64,000 bases of DNA from Phycisphaerae bacterium. GTDB taxonomy: Bacteria; Planctomycetota; Phycisphaerae; Phycisphaerales; Phycisphaeraceae. The translations under genes were made by a program, and so were the position numbers. Numbering within the stretch: position 1 is the stretch's first letter; every line of letters begins with the position of its first letter. The notes beneath the pieces are model-generated. The model made no database searches, had not been told where the DNA came from, and saw nothing but the letters and a program-made list of their open reading frames with translations. Where the stretch lies: assembly GCA_030425705.1 (NCBI GenBank), contig JAUHZU010000008.1:62001-126000 (forward strand). Reading direction: 5' to 3'. Below, piece by piece: positions 45,562-63,891 of the stretch.

Positions 45562-47340
45562 CTACGCCAGCCGCGCCGCGATGTACCGGCGGTGGACGTC
45601 GGTGTATACCTCGGCTGCGACCTGTGCCCGCTCTTGAGCGTCCGGGAAACGCTCGGAGAAGCCCGGCATCACCGGGTCGATCGTCAGGCGCGCGGCGTGG
45701 ACCAGGTGGTCCAGCAGGTCCTTGGGGTTCTCGAGCCCGACCGCGAAGCGGATGGTCGTCGGCGCGATGTCGGCCGCGCGGAGCGCCGATTCGTCCAACT
45801 CCGAGTGCGTCGTGAGGGCGGGGCAGTTGACGATCGTGTTGGTCTGCCCCAATGAGATCATGTGGCCGAACGTCGGTGACAGGCAGTCAAAAAACCGCCG
45901 GAAGCTGTCCGCGGGCACGGATTCCATCTCTGTCGTGAATAGCGGGGCCGGCAGCCCCAGGAAGCTGAGCTGCTCGCGGACAGGGCTGTTGGCGTCGTCG
46001 GGCAGCGCGTTGCAGCGCACCTTGATCTCGGGGTGGGCCCGGAGGAACCGCGCGAGGATCACCGTGTTGATGCACTTGCACAGCATCCGCTGTTCGAGCG
46101 TCCGCATGCCCTGGAGCACCTCGTAGGACGCGTCGGCGTTCAGGAATGCGCCCTTGATGTAGTAGACGTTCCAGAACATGGTCTGGTCCCACGACACCGG
46201 GCCGTCGGTGTGCCCCTTGGGCGCGAACATGTCCTCGTTGCGGGCGATCACGACGCCGGCGATCACCGAGCCGGTGCCCGACAGGTCCTTGGTGTAGCTG
46301 TGGATCACGAAGTCCGGCCGGGCGTCCGCGTCCGGGTGACGCAGCGGCTGCAGCAGGAACGGCGTGCCCACCGTGGCGTCGAGGATGACGCGCACCCCCT
46401 CGGCGTGGGCGGCCCGGCAGATCGCCGGCACGTCCAGCATGTACCCGTGCGGGTTGCAAGGCGACTCAAGATACAGGTAGACCTGCCGTCCCTCGGCCAG
46501 GCGATCGGCATGGTTCGTACGCGCCCGCTTGAGGGCCTGCATGAACGAGTCGGCCCCGCTGCCGTCGAACCGCTCGACGCCGATCGACAGGTTCCCGGGC
46601 TTGGCGAACCAGTCGTGGATGAGCTGGTGCGCGCCGCCGTACAAATTCTTGCTGGTGATCAGCACGTCGTCCCGCCCGAGCACGTGCGACAGCGTCGCGT
46701 CGATCGCGGCCATGCCCGAGTTGAAGTTCCACGCGAAGTAAGCCCCGGCGTTGGGCCCGCACTCGACATCGACGATGTGGTTAGCCAGCGCGATCGACGT
46801 CGGGTTCAGCAGACGGGAGTAGATCTCGTGCAGCAGCTCCTTGCCCTCAAAGGCGTCGGCGATCCACTCGGCACAGGCGTAGACGTACGTCGCGGTCCGC
46901 GTGATCACCGGGCTCGCAGAGAAGATCGAGCTCACGTTGTCGATCATCGCGTAGGGGCCCTTCGAGCCGACGGTGCCCTGGCTGTAGCCCAGGCCCTGGT
47001 AGGCACGGCGGACGGGGTTCTGCAGGTTGTCCAGCAGCTTCGCAAACTGGAAGGCCAGGAACTTCTTGGCATTGAACCACGCGATCCGGTCCGCGGGGTC
47101 CAGGTCCTGGATGCTGCTGAGCGTGACTTCCCAGAGCCGGTCGATGTCCTGTTGACAGCCGTAGAGCCGCTCGGCGGCGTGGGCGAGCGCGTGGCCATAG
47201 TCACTCTCGGGGTCGATGCCGAAGTGCTGCATCTGCTCGGCGACGAGCCCACGGGTGTCGCTGGCCTGGGTGGAGGTCCGCCTCGGGGAGAGGGAACGGG
47301 CAGCGCCGAGCGGGCTGGGGACGGGGGCTTTGTCGGACAT
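45562..47340 (-). CDS. Cys/Met-metabolism-type PLP enzyme with long N-terminal region
   Basis: 592 residues, against about 390-430 for typical cystathionine gamma-synthase/lyase or methionine gamma-lyase enzymes. The core starts near residue 180: NIVDVECGPNAGAYFAWNFN-like segment, then FNSGMAAIDATLSHVLGRDD, ITSKNLYGGAHQLIHDWFAK, ESPCNPHGYMLDVPAI, DATVGTPFLLQPLRHPDADA, and the PLP lysine in VIHSYTKDLSGTGSVIAGVV. The extra N-terminal 170 residues are helical (HFGIDPESDYGHALAHAAER) and specific to a long subfamily I cannot name. A TACACT box (47389-47384, minus strand) is the probable -10. The substrate is unknown; sulfur amino acid chemistry is likely. Confidence 0.8.
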   Translation of the reverse strand: MSDKAPVPSPLGAARSLSPRRTSTQASDTRGLVAEQMQHFGIDPESDYGHALAHAAERLYGCQQDIDRLWEVTLSSIQDLDPADRIAWFNAKKFLAFQFAKLLDNLQNPVRRAYQGLGYSQGTVGSKGPYAMIDNVSSIFSASPVITRTATYVYACAEWIADAFEGKELLHEIYSRLLNPTSIALANHIVDVECGPNAGAYFAWNFNSGMAAIDATLSHVLGRDDVLITSKNLYGGAHQLIHDWFAKPGNLSIGVERFDGSGADSFMQALKRARTNHADRLAEGRQVYLYLESPCNPHGYMLDVPAICRAAHAEGVRVILDATVGTPFLLQPLRHPDADARPDFVIHSYTKDLSGTGSVIAGVVIARNEDMFAPKGHTDGPVSWDQTMFWNVYYIKGAFLNADASYEVLQGMRTLEQRMLCKCINTVILARFLRAHPEIKVRCNALPDDANSPVREQLSFLGLPAPLFTTEMESVPADSFRRFFDCLSPTFGHMISLGQTNTIVNCPALTTHSELDESALRAADIAPTTIRFAVGLENPKDLLDHLVHAARLTIDPVMPGFSERFPDAQERAQVAAEVYTDVHRRYIAARLA

Positions 47341-58204: not shown

Positions 58205-59398
58205 TCAGCCGACGACCTGGCCGAGCGCATCGAGCAGCGCATCGACCTCGTCGTCGGTCGTAAACGCCCCGGGGCTGACGCGCACCGACCCCACGGGGAA
58301 CGTGCCCAGCCGGCGGTGGGCATAGGGCGCACAGTGCAGGCCCGGCCGGGTCGCGATCTCGAAGCTGTCGTCAAGGATGCTACCGAGGTCCGGCGCGTCG
58401 AAGCCGTCGATGTTGAACGACACCGTGCCCACCCGGGTCGTGGCGTCGGTGTTGCCGTAGAGCGTCATCAGGTCGTGGTCGGTGACGTAGTCGATCACTT
58501 TCTGGACCTGCGCCTGCTCGTGCGCGAGGGTATCGGCCAAGTTGCGTTGAGCGAGGTAGTCCATCGACGCGGAGAGCCCGGCGATCCCGACGGTGTTGGG
58601 CGTGCCACCTTCGAGGTAGTAGGGGTAAAGCGCGGGCTGGACGGGCGTGGCCGAGTCGCCGCCCGTGCCGCCCTCGCGGAAGGGCGCGAGCCGGGCGGGC
58701 GTGCCGGCGACGTCTTCGGACGCGGCGGGCACGCGTTCACCGACGTAGAGCCCGCCGGTACCGGTCGGGCCGAGCAGTGACTTGTGGCCGGGGAACGCGA
58801 GGAGGTCGACCTGCATCGCCTGCACATCGATGGGGACGACACCGATCGTTTGTGCCGCGTCGAGGCAGAAGAGCAGGCCCGCTTCGCGCGCGACCCGCCC
58901 CACCGCCGCGGCGTCCTGGATCGTGCCGGTCACGTTGCTGGCGTGGGTCATAACCACCAGCTTCGTCGCCGGCGTAATCGCCTTGCGGATGGCTTCGGGG
59001 TCGACAAACCCGGCGTCGTCGCAGTCGACGCGCGTCAGCGTGATCCGACCCGCGTCGCTCAACGCCTGCAGCGGCCGGCTGACCGAGTTGTGTTCGAGGA
59101 CGGTCGTGATGACGTGCGGCGTCTCACCACCCTCCGACAGCGACGCGACGACACCCTTGATCGCGATGTTCAACGCGTCGGTGCCGTTGAGGGTAAAGAC
59201 CATGCGTTCGTGCATCGGCGCGTTGACGAGGCGTGCGAGCTGAAGCCGGGCACGGTCGATCATCTCCTCCGCGGCGACGGCCATGCGGTGGCCGGCCCGT
59301 CCGGGGTTCGCGGCGTCCTCGGCGAGGAACTTCGTCATCGCCTCGGCCATGCCGGGGGCCTTGGGGAAACTCGTCGCGGCGTTGTCGAGGTAGATCAT
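58205..59398 (-). CDS. Cysteine-desulfurase-like class V PLP enzyme
   Basis: 397 residues. It begins MIYLDNAATSFPKAPGMAEA. THASNVTGTI and LDAAQTIGVVPIDVQAMQVD bind PLP, and the Schiff-base lysine is Lys206 in AFPGHKSLLGPTGTGGLYVG. The persulfide-forming Cys356 is in ATRPGLHCAPYAHRRLGTFP, a SufS-like short active-site loop. Such enzymes take sulfur from cysteine to make a persulfide. As last gene of the sulfur-carrier cluster (57 bp after the E1-like gene), it is the likely sulfur donor for the carrier. It could alternatively be a selenocysteine-lyase-like or SufS enzyme for Fe-S clusters, but no suf genes are adjacent. Confidence 0.88.
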   Translation of the reverse strand: MIYLDNAATSFPKAPGMAEAMTKFLAEDAANPGRAGHRMAVAAEEMIDRARLQLARLVNAPMHERMVFTLNGTDALNIAIKGVVASLSEGGETPHVITTVLEHNSVSRPLQALSDAGRITLTRVDCDDAGFVDPEAIRKAITPATKLVVMTHASNVTGTIQDAAAVGRVAREAGLLFCLDAAQTIGVVPIDVQAMQVDLLAFPGHKSLLGPTGTGGLYVGERVPAASEDVAGTPARLAPFREGGTGGDSATPVQPALYPYYLEGGTPNTVGIAGLSASMDYLAQRNLADTLAHEQAQVQKVIDYVTDHDLMTLYGNTDATTRVGTVSFNIDGFDAPDLGSILDDSFEIATRPGLHCAPYAHRRLGTFPVGSVRVSPGAFTTDDEVDALLDALGQVVG

Positions 59399-59455: not shown

Positions 59456-60649
59456 CTAGGCCCCAACGTACTTCGCATAGATCGACTTGGCGACGGCGGG
59501 CTTCTGGGTGCCCTTGATGATCGCCCGGCCGTCGGTAAAGAGCGTCAACTCGTACGGCTCGCCGTTGTCGACGATGTCGGTCCGCAGCATGAACCTGCTG
59601 CCGTTGACGCTGCCGTGCTGCTCGAGGCGTTTGGTGATCTCGGCGAAATCGAGCTTCTGCCCGTCGCCGAGTTTCTGTGTGATCTGCACGGCGTTGCGGC
59701 CGCAGAGCGTCGTCGTGCCGCTGGCGAACTTGCCATCTAGGAACTCAAAATCGCGGCGGTGGCAGCAGCGGCAGTCGCTGATGTCGTAGGCCCGGGCGAC
59801 CTTGAACTGCCGGACGGTATTGCCCCACAGGTCGAGGTTGAGCATCGTCGGGCTCACGGCGTCGAGGTTGCCGGTGAGGATCTTGAGCGTTTCGAGCACC
59901 TCGAAGTTGGCAACGATGGAAACCGCCGGGCCGATGACCCCGGCGGTATCGCACGTCGGGTTGAGCCCCGGCGGCGGGGCCTGCTCGAAGATGCAGCGGA
60001 GGCAGGGGGTGGCTTTGCCTTCGCGTTCCCAAGGCGTTTCGCCTGTAGTACCGGGGGCCGCAGTGTGCGGGAGGATCGGGTAGCTCGCACCGACGGTGCC
60101 GACCGCCCCGCCGTAGACGTAGGGGATGCCGTGCTTCACGGCGCAGTCGTTGGCGAGGTACCGGGTCTCGAAGTTGTCGACGCCGTCGACAATGATGTCA
60201 ACCTTCCGGCCCGCGGGCGAGTCGGCCGCATCGCTGCCGTCGGGTCTGACGCCGGCGAGCCACTCGATGTTGGTGTGGTTCACGTCGTCGACGACGGCGG
60301 ACACATTCACCTGCGAGTTGATCTTCGCGATCTTGGCGCGGGCGGCCTCGGCCTTGGGGATCGCGTTGGCGACGTCGTCCTCGTCGAACAGCACCTGGCG
60401 CTGCAGGTTGGTCATCTCGATAAAGTCGCGGTCGACGATCACGAGGTGGCCGACCCCAGCGCGGGCGAGCATGTTGGCGATGACGGTGCCCAGCGCGCCA
60501 CAGCCGACGACCAGCGCGGTCGCGCCCAGCAGCTTGCGCTGGCCCGCCTCGCCGAAGCCGGGCAGCAGCATCTGCCGGTGGTAGCGGGAAAGGTCTTCGG
60601 GGGTATCGGTCGCCTGCGTTTCGATGGCTTGGGTATCGGTGGCGGTCAT
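59456..60649 (-). CDS. E1-like ThiF/MoeB-family adenylyltransferase
   Basis: 397 residues. The Rossmann ATP-binding motif LVVGCGALGTVIANMLARAG is at about 47-66, with DRDFIEMTNLQRQVLFDEDD after it. The zinc cysteines are in TPCLRCIF and ISDCRCCHRRDF. GVIGPAVSIVANFEVLETLK is conserved. No rhodanese domain: the C-terminal 90 residues (ITQKLGDGQKLDFAEITKRL ... TQKPAVAKSIYAKYVGA) are a different small domain. Family members adenylate the C-terminal Gly-Gly of ThiS/MoaD-like carriers for thiocarboxylate formation. The MoaD/ThiS-like protein at 61016-61300 is the obvious partner. It lies 19 bp after the NIL-domain gene. Confidence 0.9.
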   Translation of the reverse strand: MTATDTQAIETQATDTPEDLSRYHRQMLLPGFGEAGQRKLLGATALVVGCGALGTVIANMLARAGVGHLVIVDRDFIEMTNLQRQVLFDEDDVANAIPKAEAARAKIAKINSQVNVSAVVDDVNHTNIEWLAGVRPDGSDAADSPAGRKVDIIVDGVDNFETRYLANDCAVKHGIPYVYGGAVGTVGASYPILPHTAAPGTTGETPWEREGKATPCLRCIFEQAPPPGLNPTCDTAGVIGPAVSIVANFEVLETLKILTGNLDAVSPTMLNLDLWGNTVRQFKVARAYDISDCRCCHRRDFEFLDGKFASGTTTLCGRNAVQITQKLGDGQKLDFAEITKRLEQHGSVNGSRFMLRTDIVDNGEPYELTLFTDGRAIIKGTQKPAVAKSIYAKYVGA

Positions 60650-60668: not shown

Positions 60669-60923
60669 TTAGGGCGCGACGAGCGAGCCGCCCTCGACGG
60701 GGTCGACCTTCACACCATTACTCACCAGGTTGTCCAGCGCCGCCTGGACCTCGTCCTCTTCGCCCTCGAAGAGCACGGCCATGATGCCGATATCCTCCTG
60801 GACGCTGGCCTGCCGGATGTCGAACATCACCGTGGGGAACTTGCGGGACATCTCCCACAGCCGGGGTTGGTTCTGCGCGCCGCCCTCGAAGGTCAGCCAG
60901 CACTTGCGGGTCGTGGTTGCCAT
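60669..60923 (-). CDS. NIL-domain protein
   Basis: 84 residues from MATTTRKCWLTFEGGAQNQP; the upstream frame is not conserved. RLWEMSRKFPTVMFDIRQAS and IGIMAVLFEGEEDEVQAALD then LVSNGVKVDPVEGG match the NIL domain, a ferredoxin-like small-molecule-binding fold found on methionine ABC transporter ATPases (MetN) and on proteins linked to homocysteine formation in anaerobes. A free-standing NIL protein between a sulfur carrier and its E1 suggests it senses or handles a sulfur amino acid. This is inference. Confidence 0.82.
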   Translation of the reverse strand: MATTTRKCWLTFEGGAQNQPRLWEMSRKFPTVMFDIRQASVQEDIGIMAVLFEGEEDEVQAALDNLVSNGVKVDPVEGGSLVAP

Positions 60924-61015
60924 CGTCGACTCCTTCCCATAGGCGTGACCGGTCCGCCCGGCCGAACATACGGCCACCCTGCGGACAGGTGAGTCCCCCC
61001 TGCGAACGGATACGC

Positions 61016-61300
61016 TTACCCGCCGGCGATGGCCAGGATGATATCGACCTGGTCTTTGTCGGTGACGGGCGTGCCGAAGTTGTCGAGGAAGCGGATGTCT
61101 TCCTCGTTGACGTAGATGTTGATCGAGCGGTTGATCTGTTCGCCGCCGTTGGGGAACAGCTTCTCGCCGAAAGCGGGGTACTGCTCGCGCAGCCCGCAGA
61201 GCACCTCGCCGACGGTCGCGCCGGGCGCAGAGACGGTCTCCTGCCCTTCGACCTGGGGACGCAGCGCGGCGGGGACGGTGACAGAGACGGGTGCGGACAT
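61016..61300 (-). CDS. MoaD/ThiS-type sulfur-carrier protein
   Basis: 94 residues, ubiquitin-like beta-grasp: VSVTVPAALRPQVEGQETVS, GATVGEVLCGLREQYPAFGE, INRSINIYVNEEDIRFLDNF, and the C-terminal DQVDIILAIAGG. It ends exactly in Gly-Gly with no tail, so no protease is needed to expose the carrier terminus. The VNEEDIRFLDNFGTPVTDKD block resembles carriers of the CysO/QbsE type more than MoaD. It is downstream of the threonine-synthase-like gene (102 bp) and upstream of the NIL and E1-like genes. Its probable role is delivery of sulfide as a protein thiocarboxylate. Confidence 0.9.
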   Translation of the reverse strand: MSAPVSVTVPAALRPQVEGQETVSAPGATVGEVLCGLREQYPAFGEKLFPNGGEQINRSINIYVNEEDIRFLDNFGTPVTDKDQVDIILAIAGG

Positions 61301-61402: not shown

Positions 61403-62653
61403 TCAGCCCACCACGACGGGCTGCGACTGCCCGGCGACGAGCGTATCGAAAGCGGCGATCTTGGCCTCGATCGGCTCGACCTCCTCGAACTGACCGGCCA
61501 TGCACTCGATCGTCTTCAGCCCGTTGCCGGTGATGCACACACAGATCGGTTCGTCGCGGGGGATCCGGCCGGACTCGATCAGCTTGATCGCACAGGCCAG
61601 GGTCGTCCCGCCCGCGGGCTCGGTGAAGATGCCTTCGGTCTCCGCGAGCAGGCGGACCGCCGCGAGGATCTCCGGGTCGGTCGCGCTCTCCGCGAAGCCA
61701 CCGGATTCCTTGAGGTGCTGGATCACGTAGTAGCCGTCGGCCGGGTTGCCGATCGCGATGGACTTGGCGATCGTGTCGGGCTTCTGCGGGTGGAACAACT
61801 CGCTGCCCTCCGCGACGGCCTTGGCGATCGGGTTGCAGCCGGCGGCCTGGGCCCCGTACATCGCGGGCTTGTTGTCCGGCACGAGCCCGAGCTTGATGAA
61901 CTCCTGGTACGCCTTCCACACCTTCGGCAGGATCGTCCCGCCGGCGACGGGCAGCACCGTGTGCGCGGGCAGGCGCCAGCCGAGCTGCTCGGCGATCTCG
62001 AAGCCGTGGGTCTTCGCCCCCTCGGTGTAGTACGGCCGGAGGTTGACGTTCACGATCGCCCAGCCGTATCGGTCGGCGATCTGCGCACACAGCCGGTTCA
62101 CGTCGTCGTAGTTGCCCTTGATCTTCACGAGCGTCGGGCCGAAGACCCGGCTGCCGACGATCTTGCCTTCTTCAAGGTCGTGGGGCACCATGACGTAGGA
62201 CTTGAGCCCGGCGGTCGCGGCATGGGCGGCGACGGAGTGGGCGAGGTTGCCCGTGCTGGCGCAACCGACCGTGTCGAAGCCGAACTCGGCGGCCTTGGTG
62301 ATCGCGACGGAGACGACCCGGTCCTTGTAGGAGTAGCTCGGGTAGTTGGCCGAGTCGTCCTTGATGTAGAGCTCATCGACGCCGAGCTTCTTCGCGAGGC
62401 GGTCGGCCTTGATAAGCGGGGTCCAGCCGGAGTTGAAACCGGCCCTGGGCTCGCCCTCGATCGGCAGCAGGTCCTTGTACCGCCACAGCGAGCGCGGGCC
62501 CGCCTCGATCGACTCGCGGGTGACCTTGCCACGCATCGCGTCATAGTCGTACTGCACCTCGACGGGCGAGAAGTCGTTGTCGCAGATCGTGCGCGGCTCG
62601 ATCGGGTACTCGGTCCCGGATTCCTTGGCTTTCAGGCACTTGACGTAGCTCAT
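61403..62653 (-). CDS. thrC: Threonine-synthase-like PLP enzyme (probable homocysteine-forming sulfur-transfer partner)
   Basis: 416 residues. Fold-type II PLP enzyme of the threonine synthase family: FNSGWTPLIKADRLAKKLGV, VGCASTGNLAHSVAAHAATA (phosphate loop STGN), TVLPVAGGTILPKVWKAYQE, and ICVCITGNGLKTIE. The PLP lysine is Lys110 in SANYPSYSYKDRVVSVA, where canonical threonine synthases have NPTGSFKDR. An N-terminal region with MSYVKCLKAKESGTEYPIEP resembles a decayed zinc ribbon. It is first in the sulfur-carrier cluster and directly controlled by a SAM-I riboswitch. O-phosphohomoserine plus a protein thiocarboxylate giving homocysteine is therefore a plausible reaction. Ordinary threonine synthesis is the alternative. 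Confidence 0.8.
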   Translation of the reverse strand: MSYVKCLKAKESGTEYPIEPRTICDNDFSPVEVQYDYDAMRGKVTRESIEAGPRSLWRYKDLLPIEGEPRAGFNSGWTPLIKADRLAKKLGVDELYIKDDSANYPSYSYKDRVVSVAITKAAEFGFDTVGCASTGNLAHSVAAHAATAGLKSYVMVPHDLEEGKIVGSRVFGPTLVKIKGNYDDVNRLCAQIADRYGWAIVNVNLRPYYTEGAKTHGFEIAEQLGWRLPAHTVLPVAGGTILPKVWKAYQEFIKLGLVPDNKPAMYGAQAAGCNPIAKAVAEGSELFHPQKPDTIAKSIAIGNPADGYYVIQHLKESGGFAESATDPEILAAVRLLAETEGIFTEPAGGTTLACAIKLIESGRIPRDEPICVCITGNGLKTIECMAGQFEEVEPIEAKIAAFDTLVAGQSQPVVVG

Positions 62654-62799
62654 GGCGTCGTTTCTCTTCGCGGCTCGGCGGACGTTTAGGTCGGGCGGGG
62701 CCCGCGTGGTGGCGGGGCTTAATCGACAAGCCCCCCGGTGTCGCAGACAACGAGGGGCGGTGACGTGTGGCCGGCCATCGCCGACCGGTCCCTTTGCCG

Positions 62800-62918
62800 C
62801 TCCTTATCTGCCCCCACCGAAGGTCGGCGGGGTAGGAATTCGCACCTCTCGCAGCGGGCAGCTGCGCGGTTGCGGTGACGTCATCGGGCCTAGTCCCTCG
62901 GTCACTCTGGATAAAAGC
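62800..62918 (-). ncRNA. SAM-I riboswitch (S box)
   Basis: On the minus strand upstream of the threonine-synthase-like gene. P1 is TTATC / GATAA. The conserved core reads CCAGAGTGACCGAGGGACTA then GGCCCGATGAC, with P2 GTGAC / GTCAC (covariant with the usual GUGGC), followed by CGCAACC. P3 is CGCAGC / GCTGCG, then the invariant AGGTGCGAATTCC and P4 CCCCGCC / GGTGGGG. All hallmark SAM-I elements are present in order. The expression platform (62654-62799) holds further GC-rich dyads, e.g. GGGGCTT / AAGCCCC, but no T-tract, so control may be translational. The rest of the 419-bp gap to 63072 contains only the promoter at 63038-63065. Confidence 0.95.
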
Positions 62919-63037
62919 AGGGGTATTTGATTGTGAACGAAGTATGGTAGCCACCCCCAGAATCGCCGTCAAGCATCGATTCTTCGGGGGGCTGCTATGC
63001 AAAGCTCAAGAACCTGCACGACGCATCAGTACGCCCC

Positions 63038-63065
63038 TTGTCCCCACCGCCCACGGCGGCATAAT
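63038..63065 (+). promoter_or_regulatory. Promoter with -10 box next to the ATG
   Basis: TTGTCC (63038-63043), 16-nt spacer, CATAAT (63060-63065), then 7 nt to the ATG at 63073. This predicts a leaderless mRNA. Confidence 0.5.
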
Positions 63066-63072
63066 CCCTCTC

Positions 63073-63891
63073 ATGCAATCGCTACAACCCTCTATCGAAC
63101 GGACGACCTGTCTCATCGGCCTCGACCCTGAGGAGTCTACTCCCCTTAGGGCCGACATTACCGGCGGCGTGATCGTGCATCCGATGCTCCCGGCGATCCA
63201 GGTCCGCGACGGACACCTCTATGTGCAGCGCCCCAATGCGATGTCGTTTGTCCGCGTCGACCAAGTGATCTATCACGGTATCTTCGAGGACGACCATGAT
63301 CTGATCGCTGCGCTCGCGCTGTGGGGTGGCCCCTGTCTGCCCAACGCACATGGCATGATGGACTGCCGACTCAAGCTGCCGTGCCTGGTGCGAGCCTTAG
63401 CAGTGTCGCGCTACGGATCGCCGCGCGGCTATACAACCGCCGGCACCAGGTACCCAGGCGGTGTACAGCGCGTCGCCAAATGGGGCAACTGGCACTGCGG
63501 TGAAAACAAAGCTCGTTTCGATGAGCCGTACACCGCCGATGCGAATGCGATCATCGAGCCGTACTTTGAAGGCAATGCAGTACGTGTGGTGTTAGTCGGT
63601 GATGAAGCATGGCAAATCGCGTTGGAAGGCCAGACATGGCTCAAGTCGATCCACGCCGACAACGCCGCGATTACGGAGATCGACACCGAGCTACTCGAAG
63701 ACACTCGTGTGATCGGCCGAGCCCTTGGGTTGGACATTGTCGCCAATGACTACATCATCACCCATGCAGGCGAGCGGCGGCTTCTCGAAGTAAACCACAT
63801 CCCCAACGTCACCCGCTTTGAACCGATCCGTGAGGCATACCTTGCCTACGCTGCACAGTGGGCGAACCGTAACAAAGCGATGCACCCGTAA
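63073..63891 (+). CDS. ATP-grasp-like protein, unknown function
   Basis: 272 residues from MQSLQPSIERTTCLIGLDPE; the frame runs upstream through the promoter, so this ATG is preferred. VAKWGNWHCGENKARF could hold the ATP-binding lysine. ANAIIEPYFEGNAVRVVLVG and EAWQIALEGQTWLKSIH follow, and the C-terminal RRLLEVNHIPNVTRFEPI resembles the Glu-x-Asn metal-binding end of ATP-grasp ligases. Overall it looks like a divergent ATP-grasp (RimK/glutathione-synthetase-like) enzyme. GC is lower than in neighbours. It lies between the riboswitch (divergent) and rpsG (convergent). No substrate can be assigned. Confidence 0.65.
   Translation: MQSLQPSIERTTCLIGLDPEESTPLRADITGGVIVHPMLPAIQVRDGHLYVQRPNAMSFVRVDQVIYHGIFEDDHDLIAALALWGGPCLPNAHGMMDCRLKLPCLVRALAVSRYGSPRGYTTAGTRYPGGVQRVAKWGNWHCGENKARFDEPYTADANAIIEPYFEGNAVRVVLVGDEAWQIALEGQTWLKSIHADNAAITEIDTELLEDTRVIGRALGLDIVANDYIITHAGERRLLEVNHIPNVTRFEPIREAYLAYAAQWANRNKAMHP

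Follow-up and report, generated by a model that had tools for sequence, protein, structure and literature searches.

Background

MetM of Streptomyces is a homocysteine synthase that converts O-phosphohomoserine (Hasebe et al. 2024, AEM 90:e01247-24, in the available part of PMC12172450). According to the same part of that account, a SAM riboswitch lies upstream of S. albulus metM, a metO-like carrier gene adjoins the thrC-like gene of Microcystis, and the thrC-like gene of M. aeruginosa has no riboswitch; the Microcystis member displayed threonine synthase and threonine deaminase activity in vitro, and its induction left methionine unraised. A further homocysteine route, described in an excerpt of PMC5764234, involves DUF39/HcyBio together with a NIL-ferredoxin. 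Control of thrC by T-box or MetR, as reported in the accessible portions of PMC12452182 and PMC4239095, is unlike the arrangement presented here. A literature search for SAM-I riboswitches and methionine in planctomycetes found no report. Work by Krishnamoorthy and Begley from 2011 is said to describe a thiocarboxylate route in Wolinella (HcyS/HcyF), which reportedly operates with MetY and O-acetylhomoserine.

The window (the whole stretch of 64,000 nt analysed here) holds a system that is a planctomycete member of the published MetM/MetO kind, an idea which, as far as the available text of that report goes, is already in print for Streptomyces. With S. albulus MetM/MetO it shares a ThrC-like PLP enzyme, an adjoining ThiS-type carrier and an upstream SAM riboswitch; the window operon adds NIL, E1 and desulfurase genes, the S. 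albulus locus being compared by enzyme, carrier and riboswitch only, as far as its available description extends. The tie to S. albulus MetM runs via Microcystis only, at 51.6% to MetM (available part of PMC12172450) and, for locus L122 of M. novacekii, at 56% to the window enzyme. This M. novacekii locus falls into the same subfamily tree, with a carrier gene lying downstream; no riboswitch was found in it, and threonine deaminase activity is reported for Microcystis (PMC12172450, same part). Common to Wolinella HcyS/HcyF and the window system are the carrier, the E1 and the (here putative) homocysteine product; however, the Wolinella route uses MetY, and the window genome has no MetY above cut-off and no MetX match. 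The DUF39/HcyBio route, as excerpted, likewise involves a NIL domain but differs in that no HcyBio was found in the window genome.

A SAM-I aptamer upstream of five minus-strand genes

A cmscan of the window placed the SAM-I model (RF00162) at 62917-62801 on the minus strand with 73.7 bits (E = 2.2e-15, curated cut-off 44.4), and the alignment spanned the whole model (1-108 of 108). In the 4.1-Mb genome this was the only RF00162 match (n = 1), located upstream of the thrC-like gene; chance similarity is ruled out by the E value and the single copy. An initial annotation had proposed a SAM-I riboswitch at 62800-62918, checkable with Infernal and RF00162, and both the identification and the position stood, with the minus strand, which had not been named, now added. 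The core motifs GAGGGA, GCAACC and GGTGC-GAATTCC (earlier given as AGGTGC-AATTCC) and stems P1-P4, also claimed earlier, are all visible in the RF00162 alignment, as is GGCCC. The compensatory change noticed in P2 reappeared in a 30-sequence alignment, where the pair in columns 16/40 is A-U in the window and G-C in the other 29 rows.

62944..62972, minus strand: predicted sigma-70-like promoter, TTGACG - 17 nt - TACCAT (consensus scan, 9/12 matches)
62801..62917, minus strand: SAM-I riboswitch aptamer (RF00162 73.7 bits, P2 covariation)
61403..62653, minus strand: threonine-synthase-like PLP enzyme, probably a MetM-type homocysteine synthase, 416 aa (TIGR00260, family matches)
61016..61300, minus strand: ThiS/MoaD-type sulfur carrier ending IAGG, probable MetO, 94 aa (Pfam ThiS, 2.1e-12)
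60669..60977, minus strand: NIL-domain protein, 102 aa as listed (Pfam NIL, 3.8e-10)
59456..60649, minus strand: ThiF/MoeB-type E1 adenylyltransferase, 397 aa (Pfam ThiF, 3.7e-67)
58205..59398, minus strand: cysteine desulfurase family protein, 397 aa (TIGR01977 398.8 bits, cut-off 377)

The promoter is one of two such predicted sites in the 500 bases scanned, compared with 0.1 in shuffled sequence. On the opposite strand, a divergent ORF of 338 aa (62875-63891, plus) without any Pfam or NCBIfam match has its listed GTG start within the riboswitch, a later ATG near 63074 being its likelier start; that the riboswitch serves this gene is ruled out by the minus-strand orientation of the aptamer.

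The five genes downstream are separated by gaps of ~20 to 100 nt. The enzyme ORF (62653-61403) scored 269.6 bits against TIGR00260 thrC (cut-off 167.1) and 290.2 bits against NF006050, below the cut-off of 303, and would thus, as foreseen, be annotated as threonine synthase; the TIGR00260 model cannot separate MetM from ThrC. An internal ATG offers the NIL-domain ORF a possible later start, and the E1 ORF reached 307 bits against NF009123, under its cut-off of 510. The arrangement is of MetM type: a ThrC-like PLP enzyme adjoins a MetO-like carrier and has a SAM riboswitch upstream.

We consider it likely, with a probability of about 80%, that the operon behind the SAM-I riboswitch is controlled by it and serves homocysteine synthesis of the MetM/MetO type, starting from O-phosphohomoserine. 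We infer the substrate and the sulfur donor as follows: the cysteine desulfurase would supply sulfur, the E1 would adenylate the C-terminal GG of the carrier on the way to a thiocarboxylate, and the threonine-synthase-like PLP enzyme would swap the phosphate of O-phosphohomoserine for the carrier sulfur, yielding homocysteine that would feed methionine and SAM. The NIL protein would be an accessory.

Among solved structures, the window carrier comes closest to the M. tuberculosis protein in 3dwg chain C (8.2e-19), which we take to be CysO, and this similarity lends something to a reading in which the operon makes cysteine in the CysM-CysO style and the riboswitch serves as a gauge of sulfur amino acids. 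The CysO route needs a JAB-type protease for product release, and the window genome gave no match to Prok-JAB; moreover, the enzyme matches threonine synthases at 5.4e-58 versus cysteine synthases at 7.9e-07 at best, and SAM control indicates methionine. CysO-type cysteine synthesis, rejected on the enzyme matches and the missing Prok-JAB, is thus highly improbable here.

Threonine and methionine genes elsewhere in the window genome

When the enzyme was used as a query against its own genome, four places matched, the thrC-like gene included. The second, a 511-aa ORF on contig C7 (31% identity), reached 241.4 bits against thrC, above the cut-off; the third gave 50.4 bits against thrC, under the cut-off, and the fourth was weaker still (E = 5e-4). 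No riboswitch was found at the C7 ThrC gene by the genome-wide RF00162 search, so that the count of thrC homologues suggested by the initial annotation returned a separate riboswitch-free ThrC, the window copy alone being riboswitched.

HcyBio (DUF39) had no match in the window genome at E 0.001, on which ground the DUF39 route was rejected. MetX likewise had no match at E 0.001; its curated cut-off is very strict, 0/14 control genomes passing it though 9/14 give a match. No MetY was found above the curated cut-off, the best score being 176.8 bits versus 495.1 for TIGR01326. That score belongs to a divergent 592-aa PLP protein of Cys/Met metabolism, extended at its N-terminus and encoded within the window (45562-47340, minus strand); no other protein of the genome matches PF01053 strongly (198.8 bits for this one), and among the matches listed it stays below the NCBIfam cut-offs. 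A homoserine kinase search found none above a cut-off in the window genome (GHMP type, 22.9 bits), and an ApgM-like protein, at ~203 bits, did not reach the cut-off of any of its three best-matching families.

The riboswitch, the sulfur-carrier operon, the riboswitch-free second ThrC and the lack of MetX, HcyBio or MetY matches above cut-off agree with the earlier view that the thrC label is misleading and the product methionine-related, which is probably the case. For annotation, a gene labelled 'threonine synthase' probably encodes a homocysteine synthase when a SAM-I riboswitch precedes it and a ThiS-like carrier gene adjoins it, and methionine auxotrophy does not follow from a genome's lack of MetX, MetY and DUF39.

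Distribution of the enzyme, its riboswitch and its neighbours

Across 294 genomes of the phylum, the enzyme was present at ≥50% identity in 49. A SAM-I match lay ≤300 nt upstream of 25 of these 49 subfamily copies (24 above the cut-off, G141 below it at 33.9 bits) and ~2.4 kb upstream of another four; for 20 copies none was found, two of which (G138 and G021) have less than 300 nt of upstream sequence. Enzyme matches at 33-42% identity had no SAM-I match within 5 kb upstream (0/22). Genomes with a SAM-I match made up 32/49 of those with the subfamily versus 29/245 of the others (Fisher p = 3e-14, kinship ignored), in a search with stricter filters that may miss weak riboswitches and in which 57/61 positive genomes scored above the cut-off. 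MetY above cut-off showed the opposite tendency, occurring in 2/49 subfamily genomes versus 50/245 others (p = 0.004, kinship ignored).

A second ThrC above cut-off accompanied 21/25 riboswitch-adjacent copies versus 4/24 others. In the Fisher table of copies bearing a carrier or a riboswitch against the remainder, the corresponding counts were 25/30 versus 0/19 (24/29 versus 0/19 without G131, whose downstream flank is cut off). The full five-gene set was also present in G185, G111, G056, G141, G171 and G076.

The named relatives comprised the best 80 of 588 loci. Within these best 80 of 588, most of the closest come from Phycisphaeraceae MAGs (70-80% identity), so the window probably belongs to this planctomycete family; a riboswitch was located upstream on the same strand in 36/80 (30 within 450 nt, six farther), was not found despite at least 450 nt of upstream sequence in 41/80, and could have been missed for too little sequence in 3/80. 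Nearby genes in the same best 80 of 588 loci included the carrier in 70/80, NIL in 36/80, E1 in 32/80 and the desulfurase in 1/80; of the ten without a carrier, four have less than 400 nt downstream. The enzyme-carrier pair is therefore general, whereas the full five-gene set is not. The riboswitch-adjacent copies, the frequent carrier gene, the accompanying second ThrC and the rarity of MetY favour the MetM reading. Several points count against it: the single desulfurase among the best 80 of 588 loci, the failure to find a homoserine kinase above cut-off, the copies for which no riboswitch was found (20/49 in the phylum, 41/80 among the best 80 of 588), the divergent Cys/Met PLP protein in the window genome, the activities of the Microcystis member together with its unraised methionine, and the 18 carrier-less copies described below, which carry the subfamily residues in genomes lacking a second ThrC above cut-off.

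A neighbour census covered 128/137 ORFs from 31 hand-picked riboswitch-bearing loci, a non-random sample in which ThiS (26), NIL (14) and ThiF (10) were the commonest Pfam families, and sulfite reductase and TusA domains occurred twice each. The riboswitch-enzyme-carrier arrangement spans Phycisphaeraceae and MAGs labelled with several other phyla.

Subfamily residues and copies lacking a carrier

A quick tree without bootstraps was built from all 80 named loci and 47/48 other genome copies, the fragment G131 being excluded. In it, 14 copies of the planctomycete family f28 formed one clade (support 100) and the four copies of f68 a second (support 99). No carrier gene was found near these 18 copies, and none of their genomes had a second thrC match above cut-off (0/18), three of them (G226, G265 and G151) having one just under it at 151-158 bits. 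One f68 locus (L194:4176-7887, genome G289) reads SAM-I riboswitch, hom, thrB, carrier-less subfamily member; L193, L197 and L188 have the same order, as assigned by similarity to L194 (74-93% identical). No second thrC match was found in the four f68 genomes with these riboswitched hom-thrB operons, and their enzyme possibly serves both threonine and homocysteine synthesis.

In these four operons a branch containing a possible threonine synthase is under SAM control, so the initial annotation went too far in asserting that placing threonine synthesis under such control is hardly sensible. Some subfamily members may make threonine, to judge from the 18 carrier-less copies in genomes without a second ThrC above cut-off.

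L137, R206 and Y209 are common to all 128 subfamily rows, the corresponding residues being T, N and R in 13/13 ThrC rows; 126/128 have N204 (S in ThrC), and position 238 is G or S (N in ThrC). The residues T88, S155, R160 and N188 of T. thermophilus ThrC, whose letters fit the chain numbering of the structure, we take to be phosphate contacts. Here the window enzyme has L137, N204, Y209 and G238 versus T, S, R and N in 13/13 ThrC rows, a clear departure from the ThrC phosphate-contact set. As the 18 carrier-less copies have the same changes, these mark the subfamily and not a function. Specificity is unreadable from sequence alone, since the carrier-less copies are often the only ThrC-like gene of their genome and four of them lie in riboswitched hom-thrB operons.

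These data also weigh on the reading of the window enzyme as a true or bifunctional threonine synthase, with SAM controlling the shared O-phosphohomoserine branch. Its best family matches are threonine synthases, four genomes place a subfamily member behind a SAM-I riboswitch, hom and thrB without a second thrC match, and threonine formation in vitro is reported for the Microcystis member (available part of PMC12172450). However, a separate ThrC (241.4 bits) is encoded elsewhere in the window genome, the window copy sits with a sulfur carrier, an E1 and a desulfurase, and the presumed phosphate-contact residues differ in 126-128 of 128 subfamily rows, and we regard a threonine synthase in the window operon as improbable.

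Homocysteine synthesis in the window operon would also fit a wider and still tentative scheme, on balance doubtful, in which one active-site signature covers two roles: carrier-linked and often riboswitched homocysteine synthases beside a ThrC, versus carrier-less copies that are the sole ThrC-like gene above cut-off, some in riboswitched hom-thrB operons, and possibly make both products. In the window lineage, a GG-ended carrier and the absence of JAB would then mean that no adduct needs a protease cut. The survey highlights carrier-less subfamily copies as candidates for differing substrate use.

Predicted folds of the leader

SAM-I riboswitches usually carry alternative P1/antiterminator and terminator folds downstream. 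The following elements were predicted in the window leader:

62804..62811, minus strand: 3' side of P1, GCAGATAA, arm 1 of a possible antiterminator (8-bp complement, p = 0.09 versus shuffles)
62743..62750, minus strand: TTGTCTGC, arm 2 of the possible antiterminator, within the terminator-like hairpin (fold prediction)
62721..62758, minus strand: terminator-like hairpin 62758-62730 (-19.4 kcal/mol) and weak tail TTGTCGATT (fold prediction)

Two competing folds were computed: with the aptamer enforced, hairpin 62758-62730 forms (total -91.5 kcal/mol), and in the free fold the antiterminator, which the hairpin overlaps, forms instead (-93.9 kcal/mol). An equally stable 29-mer occurred in 1/100 shuffled spacers; the 8-bp antiterminator complement alone is within chance (p = 0.09 versus shuffles), and in L074 and L080 it likewise sits in the 5' arm of a hairpin. 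At high SAM the aptamer would close, the antiterminator would be blocked, the hairpin would form and transcription would stop.

Among 53 related leaders (G182 and G141 excluded), 42 show, 3' of the aptamer, a hairpin that resembles a terminator and is followed by a T-tract, compared with a mean of 4.65 and a maximum of 8 in 20 shuffled leader sets; under a stricter rule (at least 7 pairs, at least 4 of them G-C) the counts were 36 and 1.25. The window leader is among the other 11. Its hairpin, a counterpart of those in the 42, is followed by a T stretch with interruptions, TTGTCGATT, so the earlier remark that a U-tract is lacking was nearly right. Two scans for T-tract terminators left the window hairpin uncounted and called no minus-strand terminator, and intrinsic termination in the window genome is doubtful given the weak T-tract.

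From the missing U-tract it had been concluded that translational control is likely. In that case the riboswitch would hide the start region rather than act on transcription. The weak T-tract and the absence of a called minus-strand terminator speak for this, whereas the hairpin ends 76 nt upstream of the ATG and so does not lie over the start, no Shine-Dalgarno-like motif hidden by the window leader fold was found, and terminator-like hairpins in 42/53 leaders versus 4.65 in shuffles point to transcription. Translational control thus appears unlikely.

Carrier C-termini

The 96 carriers in related loci ended in GG exactly in 39 cases; in another 39 the GG was followed by 1-10 residues and in 14 by more than 10, GG was missing near the end in one, and three carriers were cut off. 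An internal GG implies a maturation cut before a thiocarboxylate can form. The window carrier, which ends in GG, would by its sequence be complete without trimming, and this agrees with the lack of a JAB protease match. Of the 14 long extensions, nine measure 80-99 aa and are NIL fusions, as judged by length and the position of the NIL match, and that of G220 (locus L181) comprises 389 aa with an E1 match directly behind. The GG is accordingly internal in the carrier ORFs of L162, L163, L178, L179, L079 and L080 (NIL fusion), and L181 is apparently an E1 fusion.
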